Below, piece after piece: positions 48,103 through 55,123 of a stretch of DNA of 64,000 nt. Each line of letters starts with the position of its first letter. Within the stretch, counting starts at the first letter, position 1. Both the position numbers and the translations under genes were made by a program. The notes under the pieces were generated by a model, which had not been told where the DNA came from, did no database searches, and saw nothing but the letters and a program-made list of their open reading frames with translations. The stretch is from Marine Group II euryarchaeote MED-G38. Its GTDB lineage: Archaea > Thermoplasmatota > Poseidoniia > Poseidoniales > Thalassarchaeaceae. Where the stretch lies: positions 43,088-107,087 of the forward strand of contig NTJP01000006.1 in the NCBI GenBank assembly GCA_002457145.1, in the 5' to 3' direction.

Positions 48103-48936
48103 ATGGCTGACTGGCGACCTATTATAAAATGCCGAGACAATGGCTTTCCCCGAATAATGGGCGTCATAAATATCACTCCAGATTCCTTTTTTAAAGAATC
48201 TAGGTCGAATAGTTTAGAAAAAATATCAGAGAAAGCAATAATGATGGCTGAGAATGGTGCTGATTGGATAGATGTAGGTGGTGAATCAACGCGTCCTGGT
48301 GCTTCTGAAGTAAGATTAGAAGAAGAAATGAATAGAGTTTCTGGAGCCATTGGAATTATTAGAGATGAACTACCTAATATAGGCATATCAATAGATACTA
48401 GGAAATCTCAAGTTGCATTGAGTGCATTAAAATATGGAGCAGATATGGTTAATGATATATCTTCATTATCAGACCCTGAAATGAAAAATGTGATTTTGGA
48501 AAATAATTGTCCTATATGTATTATGCATATGAAAGGATTACCAGGAAATATGCAAAATGACCCTACATATGGGGACGTAATACAGGAGGTTAAACAAGAC
48601 TTGAAAGATGTTAGTGAGGAATTAATTCAGGCAGGTGTAGATAAAAGAAAAATAATAAATGATCCAGGAATAGGATTTGGAAAACTTCTAAAACATAATT
48701 TAAAACTCCTTTCAGCTGGTAGAGAGATTATTTCTGATGATGCTATGCCATTAATGTGGGGAGTTAGTAGGAAGAAAATGTTTGAAGATTTATTAGGAAG
48801 AGATGAAATCAAAAATAGGCTCGCAGGTACATTGGGTGTTGCGGCAATGGCGCGAGAAAAAAAAGTAGATATACTCAGGGTGCATGATGTTAGTGAGCAT
48901 TACGACTTATATAGAACAATGTATGCATTGGAGTGA
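48103..48936 (+). CDS. folP: Dihydropteroate synthase
   Basis: RIMGVINITPDSFF, GADWIDVGGESTRPGA, NDISSL, NDPGIGFGK. Confidence 0.94.
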   Translation: MADWRPIIKCRDNGFPRIMGVINITPDSFFKESRSNSLEKISEKAIMMAENGADWIDVGGESTRPGASEVRLEEEMNRVSGAIGIIRDELPNIGISIDTRKSQVALSALKYGADMVNDISSLSDPEMKNVILENNCPICIMHMKGLPGNMQNDPTYGDVIQEVKQDLKDVSEELIQAGVDKRKIINDPGIGFGKLLKHNLKLLSAGREIISDDAMPLMWGVSRKKMFEDLLGRDEIKNRLAGTLGVAAMAREKKVDILRVHDVSEHYDLYRTMYALE

Positions 48937-50114
48937 GCCTGATGTCAGAAAATTTATCTGGCGATATATTTGATTTTGATGAAAATCTAAGAATAGTTGG
49001 TACGGCCCATATAAGTAAGAAATCAATCGAAACTGTACTATCACAAATTGAAGAATGGTGTCCTGAGATTATAGCAGTGGAACTGTGTGAATCTAGATTA
49101 AAGGCTTTGAAAGAACCTGAGAAATTAGAGTCTGAAACGCTTTTGAAAATAGTAAAAGACGGTAAAGCTCCAATGGTAATTTTACAATCTGCTTTGGCTG
49201 CAGAGCAAAGAAGAATGGGGCTCACTACAGGAGAAAAACCTGGTGCAGAGTTATTGGCAGCAGTAAATGCTGCAGAAGAAAACGGAATTAAGTTTGAATT
49301 AATAGATCGTGATGTCGCCACAACGCTGAGAAGGGCTTGGAAAAAAATGAAATTCATGGAAAAATGGAAGGTACTCTATGCAATGCTATGGGCCGAAGAA
49401 GATGAAGAAATTGAAATAGACGAACTATTAGAAGATTCAGATATGCTAAGCAATATGTTAGAAGAGGCACGCAAAATAGCCCCTGGAGCAGGATATACTT
49501 TAATCGACGAGAGAGATATTTATTTATCTGAAAAAATTCGTCAGATAAGAACAGAAGGGAAAATTTTAGCAGTAGTTGGTGCAGGACACGTTAATGGTAT
49601 AAAGAAAAATCTAATGAAAGAAAGAAATGATTCGAAAGAAATTCTACATCAATTAGATAGAATCCCTAATAAAGCCAGATGGCCAAGAATTATTATGTTA
49701 TTAGTACCTTTAATAATATTTTCAGCAATAGGTTGGCTTGCTTATAATGGACAGATGTCCGAGATACAGGAGATTGCAAAAACCTGGTTGATACTAAATA
49801 TGGCATTTGCAGGTTTAGGCATAATAATTGCTAGAGGACATCCACTATCAGTAATAGTAGGCGCTCTTGCATCTCCTTTTACTTCTCTTAATCCAACATT
49901 AGCGGCAGGATGGTTTGCAGGATATACACAGTTCAAAATGGTACCTCCAACAGGAAAAGACGCTCAGGATTTTTTGAAATTAGACGATATGTCATTATTT
50001 TGGAAAAATAATGTTGGAAAAATTTTACTTGTTACTACGTTCGGTAATTTAGGTTCCTCATTGGGAGCATGGATTGGAACAGTAGGAATAATAGGGCTGG
50101 TACTGAGCCTTTAG
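48933..50114 (+). CDS. TraB/PrgY-family membrane protein
   Basis: VGTAHISKKSIETVLSQIEEWCPEIIAVELCESRL, VVGAGHVNGI, C-terminal TM helices; GTG start, alternative ATG at 48942. Confidence 0.88.
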   Translation: MSLMSENLSGDIFDFDENLRIVGTAHISKKSIETVLSQIEEWCPEIIAVELCESRLKALKEPEKLESETLLKIVKDGKAPMVILQSALAAEQRRMGLTTGEKPGAELLAAVNAAEENGIKFELIDRDVATTLRRAWKKMKFMEKWKVLYAMLWAEEDEEIEIDELLEDSDMLSNMLEEARKIAPGAGYTLIDERDIYLSEKIRQIRTEGKILAVVGAGHVNGIKKNLMKERNDSKEILHQLDRIPNKARWPRIIMLLVPLIIFSAIGWLAYNGQMSEIQEIAKTWLILNMAFAGLGIIIARGHPLSVIVGALASPFTSLNPTLAAGWFAGYTQFKMVPPTGKDAQDFLKLDDMSLFWKNNVGKILLVTTFGNLGSSLGAWIGTVGIIGLVLSL

Positions 50115-50125
50115 GGTGTGATATT

Positions 50126-51547
50126 ATGGTTAACTACGGTTTTGTAATTGACAATAGAAAATGCATAGGATGTCATGCATGTACTGTTGCATGTAAATCT
50201 GAACATGAAGTACCACTCGGCGTCAATCGAACTCATGTTAAATACATAGAAACCGGACAATATCCAAATACTTCAAGAGAGTTTTCAGTACATAGATGTA
50301 ATCATTGTGAGGACTCGCCTTGTACTACAATATGCCCTACTACTGCCTTATTTACTCGTGAAGATGGGATAGTTGACTTTGATGACGATAGATGCATAGG
50401 TTGTAAATCATGCATGCAGGCATGTCCTTATGATGCTTTATACATAGATCCAAATAAAGGTACGGCAGCAAAATGCAATTACTGTGCACATAGAATTGAG
50501 CAATCATATGAGCCTGCTTGTGTAATTGTATGCCCTACAGAAGCAATTATTTCTGGCGATTTAGATGAAGAAAATTCTTCAATATCAAATTACATTAAGC
50601 AGCATGATGTAAGTGTCAGAAAACCAGAATCTGGCGCTAAACCTAATTTATTTTATATTGATGCAAGCCCAGAAATGTTAGATCCTTTAGCGACAGAAAG
50701 AACTCAGACCTATGTATGGAGTGAGCAAGTTTCTGGTGTCGGACATTATGCTAAGTATGCAGAAGAAAGATTGTCAGGGGCCGATACGAATTCCATGATA
50801 GTGCAATTAGCATTGGAAAAAAAAGCCAAATCATCAAATCCAAGAGATAGGGCCATTATCAGAGATGTTATGGAAAAATTAGATAAAGATGTTGAATCAA
50901 ACACAAAAAGGACTTATGATCAACCAAGTAAAGGAGTTTTATGGGGGTGGGAAGTTTCTGCATACATATGGACAAAGGCGATTTCTGCCGGACTTTATTT
51001 TGTAGCAATGATAGCGTGGTTAGTATTAGATTATGATTTATCTGATTACGGACTTTGGTGGCCTGTAATCGGCACTAGTCTACTATTTTTGGCTATAACA
51101 GGAGTGTTGCTAGTAATGGATTTAGATAGACCAGAACGATTTCTATATGTCATGCTTAGACCTAATTGGGATTCATGGTTAGTAAAAGGAGCTTATATTC
51201 TTTCAGCATATGGAGGAGTATTATTTGTAACTATGATACTTCTTATTTTAGATTTAGATTTGATTTATCTTAAAGTAATAGCTATTGTTGGCATACCTAT
51301 CTCTTTATTGACAGGAATTTATACTGCTTGGTTACTACAACAAGCAAAAGGTAGGTCATGGTCAAAAGATAAAATCCTTCCACTTAGATTCTTAATGGAC
51401 ACTGTATTAATTGGAGTTGCATCTTTAGCCATAATATCCAACTACAATGAAATACAATATGTTTTAGTTGGCCTTGGAATATTGATATTTTACTGGTACG
51501 AAGGTAAGAATATGATAATCAAACCACAAATGGAATCTCTAACTTAG
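50126..51547 (+). CDS. Fused 4Fe-4S (DmsB/PsrB/SoeB-like) and NrfD/PsrC-like membrane anchor subunit
   Basis: Four cysteine clusters (CIGCHACTVACKSEH, CNHCEDSPCTTICP, CIGCKSCMQACP, CNYCAHRIEQSYEPACVIVCP) then about 6 TM helices with the NrfD-type MDLDRPERFLYVMLRPNWDSWLVKGAYIL. Confidence 0.88.
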   Translation: MVNYGFVIDNRKCIGCHACTVACKSEHEVPLGVNRTHVKYIETGQYPNTSREFSVHRCNHCEDSPCTTICPTTALFTREDGIVDFDDDRCIGCKSCMQACPYDALYIDPNKGTAAKCNYCAHRIEQSYEPACVIVCPTEAIISGDLDEENSSISNYIKQHDVSVRKPESGAKPNLFYIDASPEMLDPLATERTQTYVWSEQVSGVGHYAKYAEERLSGADTNSMIVQLALEKKAKSSNPRDRAIIRDVMEKLDKDVESNTKRTYDQPSKGVLWGWEVSAYIWTKAISAGLYFVAMIAWLVLDYDLSDYGLWWPVIGTSLLFLAITGVLLVMDLDRPERFLYVMLRPNWDSWLVKGAYILSAYGGVLFVTMILLILDLDLIYLKVIAIVGIPISLLTGIYTAWLLQQAKGRSWSKDKILPLRFLMDTVLIGVASLAIISNYNEIQYVLVGLGILIFYWYEGKNMIIKPQMESLT

Positions 51548-51558
51548 GTGAAATTATA

Positions 51559-54297
51559 ATGAAAAAAGACAGTATAATAGAACGAATTGCTGTAAAGTTA
51601 AAGATTATACCAGATTTGTCCAGAGAAAGAATTGAATCTAAGGTAAATGGAGAATTAAGGAAATACCCTTCATCGAATGATTGGCATAATCATATCGAGT
51701 TTGATGCCCAGGCATGGCCAAAGAGAATTGAGAGGAAATATTCACTAGTACCTACGACCTGTTTTAATTGTGAGTCTGCGTGTGGCTTAATGGCTTATGT
51801 AGATAAAGAAACAGGAAAAGTAAGTAAATTTGAAGGAAACCCTCATCATCCCGGATCTAGAGGAAGGAATTGTGCTAAAGGTCCTGCAACAATAAATCAG
51901 ATTAATGATACTGAGAGAATATTATACCCATTGAAAAGAAAGGGAGAAAGAGGATCTGGCGAGTGGGAAAGAGTTAGTTGGGAAGATGCATTAGATGATA
52001 TTGCCAGTAAAATAAGATCCTCTTTGAAGAGCGGTGCTAAAGATAAGGTGGTTTATCATGTAGGAAGGCCGGGTCATGAAGGCTATACAAATAGGGTGTT
52101 GAAAGCATGGGGAGTAGATGGACATAATTCTCACACAAATATTTGTTCAGCTGGTGCAAGAACTGGGTACGCATTATGGCACAAACATGATCGCCCGTCT
52201 CCAGATCATTCCAATGCAAAAGTCATTCTATTAACCTCATCGCATTTAGAAACTGGACATTATTTCAATCCACATGCTCAACGAATTTTAGAAGGGATGA
52301 TGGAAGGTGCGAAATTGATTGTGATAGATCCCAGATTATCAAATACTGCTGCAATGGCTGATCATTGGCTACCTACATGGCCGGGTTCTGAACCAGCATT
52401 ATTCTTATGCTGGGCGAAAATGATACTAGAAAAGGAATTATATGATCGTGAATTTTTGGAAAAATGGGTCAACTGGGATGAGTGGATTAAAGCGGAACAT
52501 CCAAAAGAAGATTGTAATTTTGATAGATTTATTGAATTATTACTAGATGAATATGATAAATATACGCCAGAGTATGCCGCTTCTGAATGCCGCATACCTG
52601 TGGAACAAGTAATAGAAACAGGTGAAATTGTAGCTTCAGCAGGAAGTAGATTGTGTACTCATGTTTGGAGGGCTGCTGCAATTGGTAACTTAGGTGGTTG
52701 GCAAGTGAGTAGGACTTTACATTTCCTAAATGTTTTAACCGGTTCTGTTGGAACAGAAGGAGGTACAGCGCCCAATTCTTGGGCCAAATTTAAACCTGAA
52801 TTATTTAATAATCCTCCTGATCCAGATGGATGGAATGAATTACATTTTCCTCCTGAATATACATTATCTCATTTTGAAATGAGTCATATACTCCCGCACA
52901 TGATTAAAGAGGGCAGGGGGAAAATGGATGTTTATTTTACTAGAGTATTTAATCCAGTTTGGACATACCCAGATGGTTTTACTTGGATAGAAATGTTACA
53001 AAATAAGGAAGCTCTAGGATGCCATATAGCGTTAACGCCGACATGGAATGAGACAGCATTTTTCGCTGATTATGTCTTGCCAATGGGGCATGCATCTGAA
53101 CGTCACGACATAAATTCTTATGCTACTTCAGCTGGAAAGTGGGTGGCATTTAGACAACCAGTACTAAGAGAATTTTCTCGTAGAGAAGGAAAAAATGTAG
53201 AGTTTACACATGAAATTAATCCAGGAGAAGTATGGGAAGAAGATGAATTTTGGATAGAATTATCTTGGAAAATAGATGATGGGACCATGGGTATAAGAGA
53301 CCATTTCATGAGCCCCTACAGAGAAAATGAAAAAATCACAATTGATGAGTATTATAAATATACTTTTGAACGTGTACCAGGATTGAATGAAGCAGCAGAG
53401 AAAGAAGATTTGGATGCTTTGGAGTATATGCGAAAACATGGTGCGTTTTTGATTGAGCCTGCGACATACAAAAAACACGAGCAAGAAGGTTGGCCTACTC
53501 CTTCAGGGAAACAGGAATTTTATTCCTTAACTATGAAAGAATTCGGCTATCCTGAACATACCATACCTCATTATAAAATAAATAGTCAAGTCCATCCGAG
53601 TAACCTTCAAGGCGATGATGAATATTGTCTTTTACCTAATTTCAGGCTTCCTCAACACATACATTCAAGGTCTGCTAATGCTAAATGGTTAGTGGAAATA
53701 GCTCACAGGAATCCAATTTGGTTACATCCCAAGGATGCTAAAAAATTAGATGTCAAAGATGGAGAATTGTTGAAAATAGAAACTGAAATAGGATGGTTTG
53801 TTGACAAAGTTTGGGTTACTGAATCGATTAAACCAGGAGTTGTTGGATGTTCACACCACATAGGAAGATGGAGAAGAAATCAAGATTCAGGAAATCGTTT
53901 TCTTACCAATACTGTTGATATTCAAGATAGAGGTGATGGTAAATGGCGAATGAGCACTATAAAAGGAATAGAATCATGGAAATCAGATGATCCAGACACT
54001 AATAGAATATGGTGGAGAGATGGAGGGGTTCATCAAAATATTACTCATGCCGTTCAACCGGATCCAATAAGTGGAGCGCATTGCTGGTTACAGAAAGTTA
54101 AATTGAGTAAACCCAATTCTGATGAAAAATATGGCGATATAGAAGTAGATACAAATAAGTCATTTGAGTATTATAAAAAATGGAACAAATGGGCTAAGGA
54201 AAGAGAGACTCATCCTCGAAGAGAACGTAGACCATTGTGGATGAAAAGACCATTATCGCCACAAAAGGAAAATTGGTATATTAAAGAAGAAGGGTAA
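51559..54297 (+). CDS. Molybdopterin oxidoreductase catalytic subunit (DMSO reductase family, SoeA/Psr-like)
   Basis: 4Fe-4S motif CFNCESACG...GRNCAKG, NICSAGARTGYALW, IVIDPRLSNTAAMADHWLPTWPGSEPAL; no N-terminal twin-arginine signal. Confidence 0.9.
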   Translation: MKKDSIIERIAVKLKIIPDLSRERIESKVNGELRKYPSSNDWHNHIEFDAQAWPKRIERKYSLVPTTCFNCESACGLMAYVDKETGKVSKFEGNPHHPGSRGRNCAKGPATINQINDTERILYPLKRKGERGSGEWERVSWEDALDDIASKIRSSLKSGAKDKVVYHVGRPGHEGYTNRVLKAWGVDGHNSHTNICSAGARTGYALWHKHDRPSPDHSNAKVILLTSSHLETGHYFNPHAQRILEGMMEGAKLIVIDPRLSNTAAMADHWLPTWPGSEPALFLCWAKMILEKELYDREFLEKWVNWDEWIKAEHPKEDCNFDRFIELLLDEYDKYTPEYAASECRIPVEQVIETGEIVASAGSRLCTHVWRAAAIGNLGGWQVSRTLHFLNVLTGSVGTEGGTAPNSWAKFKPELFNNPPDPDGWNELHFPPEYTLSHFEMSHILPHMIKEGRGKMDVYFTRVFNPVWTYPDGFTWIEMLQNKEALGCHIALTPTWNETAFFADYVLPMGHASERHDINSYATSAGKWVAFRQPVLREFSRREGKNVEFTHEINPGEVWEEDEFWIELSWKIDDGTMGIRDHFMSPYRENEKITIDEYYKYTFERVPGLNEAAEKEDLDALEYMRKHGAFLIEPATYKKHEQEGWPTPSGKQEFYSLTMKEFGYPEHTIPHYKINSQVHPSNLQGDDEYCLLPNFRLPQHIHSRSANAKWLVEIAHRNPIWLHPKDAKKLDVKDGELLKIETEIGWFVDKVWVTESIKPGVVGCSHHIGRWRRNQDSGNRFLTNTVDIQDRGDGKWRMSTIKGIESWKSDDPDTNRIWWRDGGVHQNITHAVQPDPISGAHCWLQKVKLSKPNSDEKYGDIEVDTNKSFEYYKKWNKWAKERETHPRRERRPLWMKRPLSPQKENWYIKEEG

Positions 54298-54301
54298 AGA
54301 C

Positions 54302-55123
54302 ATGGAATTAGAAATAATCTTGGCAATATCACTAATTGTCACTACTGCTTTTCTTTTTTCTCCATTAGGGCTTGGCGGAGGAGTACTTTATATGCCAATT
54401 TTACATTATATTGTAGGTTGGGACATTTCATTATCAGTTTTGGGTTCTTTAATTTTAATTCTTATGGTATCTTCTGGTAGTAGAATGGCCCATATGAAAG
54501 GAGGATATGCCATAATTTCAGTTGGAAAACATGGAGTTTTACCTGCCTTAATAGGGGCAGTCTCGGGAACTATAATGAGTTACTTTTTAATTGTACATGT
54601 CGGTGATTTCACAATAAAGATAGCAGCCTCCTTACTACTAATTTGGGTAATAATGAGAACTATGAAACAAATAGTTGGAGATAACAGAGTGGGCGAGACT
54701 AAAGAAATCTCACCGGATGAAATTACTTCAGAAATCATGAATAAATATAAAATTTTATGTTTTGTTGCTGGTATGGTTTCAGGTGCATTAGGGATGGGAA
54801 GTGGAATGTTACTTGTCACATTTCATCGCACACTTTTCTCTTGGAAACCTCATTATACTGCAGGAACATCCGCACATATAGTAATGTTAATGATACCTGT
54901 TGGAATTATTTCTCATCTAATTATCGATGGGACTGGAGTACAATTTTGGAGAGAAATGGGGTATTTCATAATCATTTTTGCCATCATGATGCCATTAGTT
55001 TCATGGCTTGGTTCGAGAACTGCAATAAAATTAATCCCTCAAAGATTGTTAACTTATCCGTTTTTATTAGCTGTTTTTGGAAGTTTAATTAGATATATTT
55101 TAGATATTTTTGGAATTATATAA
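54302..55123 (+). CDS. TauE/SafE-family membrane transporter
   Basis: FSPLGLGGGVLYMPIL, MVSGALGMGSGMLLV repeat halves; multi-TM. Confidence 0.85.
   Translation: MELEIILAISLIVTTAFLFSPLGLGGGVLYMPILHYIVGWDISLSVLGSLILILMVSSGSRMAHMKGGYAIISVGKHGVLPALIGAVSGTIMSYFLIVHVGDFTIKIAASLLLIWVIMRTMKQIVGDNRVGETKEISPDEITSEIMNKYKILCFVAGMVSGALGMGSGMLLVTFHRTLFSWKPHYTAGTSAHIVMLMIPVGIISHLIIDGTGVQFWREMGYFIIIFAIMMPLVSWLGSRTAIKLIPQRLLTYPFLLAVFGSLIRYILDIFGII

Follow-up and report, generated by a model that had tools for sequence, protein, structure and literature searches.

A probable sulfite:quinone oxidoreductase with a shortened NrfD-type membrane anchor in Marine Group II archaea

A probable three-gene sulfur redox module

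Three consecutive genes in a 64,000-nucleotide stretch of the Marine Group II euryarchaeote MED-G38 (hereafter the window, whose coordinates are used throughout) code for a fused Fe-S/NrfD-type protein (B), a molybdopterin oxidoreductase catalytic subunit (A) and a TauE/SafE-family exporter (Table 1). We propose that this module is likely to be a cytoplasm-facing sulfite:quinone oxidoreductase of the two-gene fused type, similar to the polysulfide-reductase-like complex 3 (PSRLC3), together with a TauE/SafE outlet. Sulfite is put forward as the substrate based on gene context and the published proposal for PSRLC3 and SoeABC; we further infer that quinone is the acceptor, that TauE serves as the sulfite outlet, and that persulfide is the source of sulfite in the richer clusters of related archaea. 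The initial annotation, made from the letters of the DNA, had described three consecutive + strand genes 4-11 bp apart, the first with four 4Fe-4S cysteine clusters and NrfD-type helices in one polypeptide, the second a DMSO-reductase-family subunit devoid of a twin-arginine leader, and the third resembling TauE/SafE. All of this was borne out: the genes lie on the + strand with gaps of 11 bp between B and A and 4 bp between A and TauE; Fer4_11 and NrfD (PF03916) are both recovered above the Pfam cut-off within the single chain of B, along with 16 cysteines; Molybdop_Fe4S4, Molybdopterin and Molydop_binding are all above cut-off in A; and the third protein matches PF01925 (TauE) over residues 11-263 of 273 with an E-value of 6.7e-19 (68.9 bits against a gathering score of 32.6). 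No twin-arginine leader was found in the window's A, and a loose RRxF pattern matched 2 of 98 family members, neither of them convincing as a leader. A is the sole protein with a Molybdop_Fe4S4 domain in its own genome, which is 75% complete.

Table 1. Features of the module, in coordinates of the window
Feature	Description	Position	Strand
Gene B	Fused four-cluster Fe-S protein and NrfD-type membrane anchor, 473 aa	50126..51547	+
Fe-S domain of B	PsrB-like; 16 cysteines for four [4Fe-4S] clusters in four motifs, residues 13-136	50162..50533	+
Membrane domain of B	PsrC-like; six predicted TM helices, residues 275-468, equivalent to TM1-5 and TM8 of full-length homologues	50948..51529	+
Deletion site in B	Approximate site of the ~75 missing residues (TM6-7 of full-length homologues)	51437..51454	+
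Gene A	Molybdopterin oxidoreductase catalytic subunit without Tat leader, 912 aa	51559..54297	+
[4Fe-4S]-binding cysteines of A	Cys68, Cys71, Cys75 and Cys105; all invariant in the family alignment	51760..51873	+
Cys196 of A	Invariant; position of the cysteine Mo ligand in PsrA, ArrA and NapA; putative ligand	52144..52146	+
TauE gene	TauE/SafE-family exporter, 273 aa	54302..55123	+

Affinities and cellular location of the catalytic subunit

We built a quick maximum-likelihood tree with 80 proteins, in which a branch with an SH-aLRT value of 100 separates the 42 family members (from archaea, Halobacteria, Chlorobium, Bacteroidota and others) from the rest, with A sharing a clade with its Chlorobium homologues. 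This family nests within a group of 64 members that includes PhsA, TtrA and many Psr/Arr-like proteins, its exact sister group being left unsure by the long outgroup branches. DmsA, NarG, NapA, FdnG and FDH3 all lie outside this group, and the nesting of A with formate dehydrogenases or nitrate reductases, which the initial annotation had named as evidence against its reading, was not observed. Judged by its sequence, A falls in the Psr/Phs/Ttr/Arr part of the superfamily. This position bears on the tentative Fqo type of formate:quinone oxidoreductase, which has been proposed for an NrfD-containing complex of Chlorobi, Actinobacteria, Chloroflexi and others (PMC8076601). That complex has three separate subunits, of which A and B are FdnGH-like, whereas the window's A is outside the FdnG/FDH3 group and reaches 141 bits with the Fdh-alpha model against a cut-off of 666; we accordingly regard a formate-dependent enzyme as exceedingly improbable. 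Among NCBIfam models PhsA comes nearest to A, its best PDB sequence match is the Thermus polysulfide/thiosulfate reductase, and its AF2 model is closest in fold to ArrA and PsrA, with ArrA as the best match in a comparison where all DMSO-reductase-family folds score closely. In one relative (G014:C22:47082-49691; L020, L029) an open frame of 876 aa lacks approximately 35 residues from the central part of A (query 452-485), reflecting either an assembly error or a real deletion.

The nearest proteins outside the A family carry Tat leaders, as do the related PhsA and TtrA, whereas the A family is without them, and we detected no export signal in either A or B. Across 17 archaeal sequences of B the presumed outward-facing loops contain 7 Lys/Arg against 75 Asp/Glu, as opposed to 160 against 120 in the inner loops. 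These loop charges indicate that the Fe-S domain of B, and hence A, is situated in the cytoplasm, in agreement with the earlier suggestion of a probably cytoplasmic catalytic subunit; the same arrangement has been proposed for SoeABC (PMC8076601). This location is pertinent to the nature of the substrate because sulfite, unlike DMSO or nitrate, would arise in the cytoplasm, which favors sulfite. As quinol is unable to reduce sulfate given the redox potentials involved, the reaction would have to run as an oxidation if sulfite is indeed the substrate. A different cytoplasmic sulfur compound, such as thiosulfate, polysulfide, tetrathionate, or a persulfide or thiosulfonate carried by TusA/DsrE2, might instead be reduced or oxidized by A-B, in keeping with the PhsA and Thermus matches noted above and with the DsrE2 and TusA genes that adjoin A-B in some members. 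However, the PhsA score is far under its cut-off (192 against 694 bits), the catalytic subunits of known Psr, Phs and Ttr enzymes have Tat leaders and act outside, and the SulP neighbors described below suit sulfate as a product, leading us to view this alternative as unlikely.

A predicted six-helix version of the NrfD anchor

The AF2 model of B displays six TM helices in its membrane part, mostly with pLDDT values of 95-98; the membrane part matches PsrC and the Fe-S part, modeled at low confidence, matches PsrB. Hydropathy peaks alone yield 3-6 helices in the archaeal proteins and mostly 6-8 in the others; as they undercount helices, we used the AF2 model and profile alignments instead. A global profile-profile alignment of 15 archaeal B proteins against full-length homologues indicates that TM1-5, TM8 and the C-terminal tail are kept, while ~75 residues with TM6-7 are absent, overruling a first multiple alignment that had placed the loss at TM7-8. 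Consistent with this, the complete archaeal proteins first read are 443-482 aa in length against ~506-592 aa in nearly all others, and short open frames of similar length were recovered for B in most of the 78 genomes that carry it. This loss of TM6-7, the real peculiarity of B, had been overlooked in the initial annotation. NrfD-like subunits comprise two four-helix bundles, with 8-10 helices in total, of which the first holds the quinone site and both contribute half-channels (PMC8076601). Archaeal B, as modeled, keeps the first bundle and is without half of the second, and we infer that it could support quinone reduction without the proposed ion path. The quinone link suggested by the initial annotation is supported, with quinone itself as the presumed acceptor.

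Phyletic spread and genomic context outside the order

Orthologs of A and B make up a two-gene complex that occurs in more than 10 bacterial phyla and in Halobacteria. A genome scan recovered at least 558 confirmed relatives, the best 80 of which come from Chloroflexota, Bacteroidota, Chlorobiota, Acidobacteriota, Planctomycetota, Gemmatimonadota, Calditrichota, Bacillota and others, and the same pair is present at 51-54% identity on plasmids of Natrinema, Thermomicrobium roseum and Rhodococcus jostii. Fusion of the Fe-S and NrfD parts is the rule among the bacterial relatives. Its prevalence across many phyla points to an old shared trait and does not sustain the earlier notion of the fused chain as a compact archaeal form.

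We then examined the neighbors of A-B, which in several bacterial phyla and Halobacteria include genes for a SulP sulfate permease, MBL-rhodanese, DsrE2, TusA and TauE. Within 2.5 kb of A-B, SulP accounts for 23 of 420 ORFs against 4 of 590 farther out in the same loci (p 3e-6); MBL (p 2e-5) and TauE (8 against 0; p 9e-4) are likewise enriched by the same comparison, all of these p-values being optimistic as the loci are partly related. In 40 of 78 bacterial loci there are no recognized sulfur genes within 4 kb. In Chlorobium, TauE is directly behind A, followed in two loci by genes for DsrE2 and rhodanese. Together with the position of A in the tree, these sulfur-gene neighbors lend support to the interpretation of the window's locus as a sulfur redox module. 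Some Bacteroidota loci (L059:8007-9197; also L069, L078, L084 and L096) code for a type III sulfide:quinone reductase-like protein near A-B, which would extend the route to sulfide.

Conservation and sulfur clusters within the order

A search of 59 genomes found relatives of A at 73-93% identity in 20 genomes other than the window's, with B alongside wherever the locus reaches. B occurs in 78 of the order's 293 genomes, 61 of these 78 belonging to the window's family and 17 to its sister family. B adjoins A in every related archaeal locus that was read and reaches both genes; this constant adjacency, along with the occurrence of B across the order, implies that the arrangement is more than chance. 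Among 20 loci read with wider flanks, 11 have TauE immediately behind A and 2 others have it upstream at a distance of a few kb at most. The neighborhood conservation that the initial annotation had advised checking is hence constant for B-A; the lack of conservation of TauE that it named as counter-evidence was not encountered. Nevertheless, among the 20 loci TauE was absent from beside A-B in the genera g6 and g9 (one contig ends too early), suggesting that the coupling to an exporter, as proposed in the initial annotation, is optional.

Directly upstream of B are genes for a dihydropteroate synthase (48103-48936, +) and a TraB/PrgY protein (48933-50114, +), with the same order in many related genomes and the genes elsewhere in some. 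Having considered them as parts of the module, we treat both as background neighbors, as they are located elsewhere in two clusters with the DsrE2 set. A thiolase gene and flotillin-like and NfeD-like genes downstream of the module are largely conserved in related genomes, and another neighboring gene matches the archaeal tRNA (cytidine-56) 2'-O-methyltransferase (Trm56-like) with a score somewhat below the model cut-off, in keeping with an archaeal host; its gene content, compared with published descriptions (PMC6741140, PMC6336850), suggests a member of the Poseidoniales. PMC6741140, citing Martin-Cuadrado 2008, takes genes for a molybdopterin oxidoreductase, 4Fe-4S proteins and TraB/PrgY in Marine Group II to indicate respiration of DMSO; this gene set fits the window's locus, with TraB directly upstream of B, and this type of locus was apparently seen before under that interpretation. 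Respiration of DMSO or another S/N-oxide is nonetheless very unlikely in our estimate: E. coli DmsA is outside the group holding A, the anchor is NrfD rather than DmsC, A has no Tat leader, the neighbors are sulfur-oxidation genes, and Marine Group II organisms are described as obligate aerobic heterotrophs (PMC6336850).

Of the 20 related archaeal loci, 8 have B-A immediately behind genes for an ArsR-type regulator, DsrE2 and rhodanese/MBL, and two of these 8 include a recognized TusA (Pfam was run on representatives and the rest were called by similarity). The order in these clusters (L280, L281, L283 and L285-L289) is ArsR - (TusA) - DsrE2 - rhodanese/MBL - B - A - (TauE). Of the 293 genomes, 20 carry the rhodanese/MBL gene, and B is present in 18 of these 20 (p 1e-9 given the overall frequency of B); the two genes are adjacent by coordinates in 17. 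These clusters possibly constitute a complete persulfide-to-sulfate route in related archaea. The ArsR-type regulators at their head, together with the ArrA-like fold of A, might evoke an enzyme of arsenite or arsenate redox chemistry. Yet none of the cluster genes was recognized as an arsenic gene, DsrE2, TusA and rhodanese are sulfur carriers, there are ArsR-family repressors for which sulfane sulfur is the signal (PMC12423496), and the folds of this superfamily discriminate little between its members, such that we give arsenic a very small chance indeed. The archaeal MBL domain displays THLQADY where persulfide dioxygenase (PDO) has THxHADH; in our own reading of the sequence it appears to keep the residues for a single iron. 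Our search of genomes of the window's genus did not recover the rhodanese/MBL gene, and the two rhodanese genes of the window's own genome, considered as candidates for the MBL fusion, were read by us as TrhO-like and MoeB-like instead. No sulfite source was identified in this genome (75% complete), and a taurine route via Xsc yielded no match above cut-off in 59 relatives. Marine Group II organisms share assimilatory sulfite reduction (PMC6336850), which makes a cytoplasmic sulfite pool likely. In one relative (L273:694-4435), apparent etfB and etfA genes and a gene for a CCG/Fer4 membrane protein directly precede B, possibly as another electron input to quinone.

Relationship to known complexes

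PSRLC3 of green sulfur bacteria has been described as an alternative sulfite-oxidizing system encoded by two genes (PMC6338057, PMC5473276). The window's pair likewise consists of two adjacent genes, with the Fe-S and NrfD parts in one chain; the Chlorobium pairs, which we tentatively equate with PSRLC3 by their fit to this description, consist of a fused B and a Tat-less A with TauE behind A. PSRLC3 differs in having a full-length NrfD domain, whereas archaeal B is without TM6-7. As TM1-5 and TM8 align beyond doubt, we consider the window's complex a shortened variant of the fused PSRLC3 type. SoeABC of Allochromatium vinosum and Aquifex aeolicus has a Mo subunit with an N-terminal [4Fe-4S], a four-cluster Fe-S subunit, an NrfD-like anchor and cytoplasmic catalysis (PMC8076601, PMC5114278). 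The window's complex shares with it the leaderless Mo subunit with a cytoplasmic catalytic side, the four-cluster Fe-S part and the NrfD-like anchor, a likeness drawn from published descriptions; however, SoeB and SoeC are separate chains, the latter with eight helices, in contrast to the single six-helix chain of B, and we therefore do not file it as SoeABC proper. No SoeABC operon was found on the plasmids searched with A, B, its Fe-S part and E. coli DmsC, nor in the Thioclava, Rhodobacter, Salipiger and Pseudohalocynthiibacter loci inspected, nor in searches of the phyla to which two of the genomes belong. PsrABC has a periplasmic catalytic subunit, and its PsrB and eight-helix PsrC are separate chains. 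While it differs from the fused B in these last respects, PsrABC of Thermus thermophilus (PDB 2vpw) is the best sequence match for both A and B and a structural match for the Fe-S and membrane parts. Finally, clusters for cytoplasmic persulfide oxidation by PDO resemble the related archaeal clusters in that the latter join DsrE2, rhodanese/MBL and in places TusA to B-A; the archaeal protein differs in the above-stated MBL motif, its role as a persulfide dioxygenase being putative, and has no counterpart in the searched genomes of the window's genus. The kind of enzyme is known and widespread, though it has received little study; what looks new is the six-helix archaeal form of B and the archaeal sulfur-oxidation cluster, with B-A placed behind ArsR, DsrE2 and a persulfide-dioxygenase-like rhodanese/MBL gene. 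We found no report of a Marine Group II sulfite or persulfide gene cluster of this make-up in the literature searched, the coverage of which was incomplete.

Proposed mechanism and implications

In light of the above, we posit that the sulfite:quinone oxidoreductase would work like SoeABC, with A oxidizing the toxic sulfite to sulfate at Mo-bisPGD. Electrons would pass from the [4Fe-4S] of A through the four clusters of B, for all of which the binding residues are present, to quinone at a site in the retained first four-helix NrfD bundle, and from there to the aerobic respiratory chain. With TM6-7 gone, an ion path via the second bundle is probably not functional, which would make the complex a plain electron feeder and detoxifier, with TauE expelling surplus sulfite. 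In related genomes the sulfite may be generated from persulfide by DsrE2, sometimes TusA, and the persulfide-dioxygenase-like rhodanese/MBL enzyme of the same cluster; the window's genus would have retained the sulfite step alone. More tentatively, and with somewhat less than even confidence, we suggest that a sizeable fraction of the abundant, planktonic Poseidoniales-type archaea gain additional electrons by oxidizing sulfane sulfur or sulfite, by means of a cluster of the order ArsR - TusA - DsrE2 - persulfide dioxygenase - sulfite:quinone oxidoreductase - TauE, with the six-helix NrfD feeding quinone without ion pumping. Descriptions of Marine Group II archaea, which are abundant and uncultured, present them as aerobic (photo)heterotrophs; a module for sulfite oxidation, supplemented by a persulfide one in some genomes, would place them in the marine sulfur cycle, and the sulfite reading would replace the older one of DMSO respiration. 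The six-helix NrfD further represents a natural deletion experiment on whether the second bundle is needed for quinone chemistry or just for the proposed ion translocation. Some related archaea (L022, L023 and L030) additionally code for another Mo/Fe-S protein, ~900 aa long, which begins with a 2Fe-2S ferredoxin-like part and resembles NuoG or NAD-dependent formate dehydrogenase.
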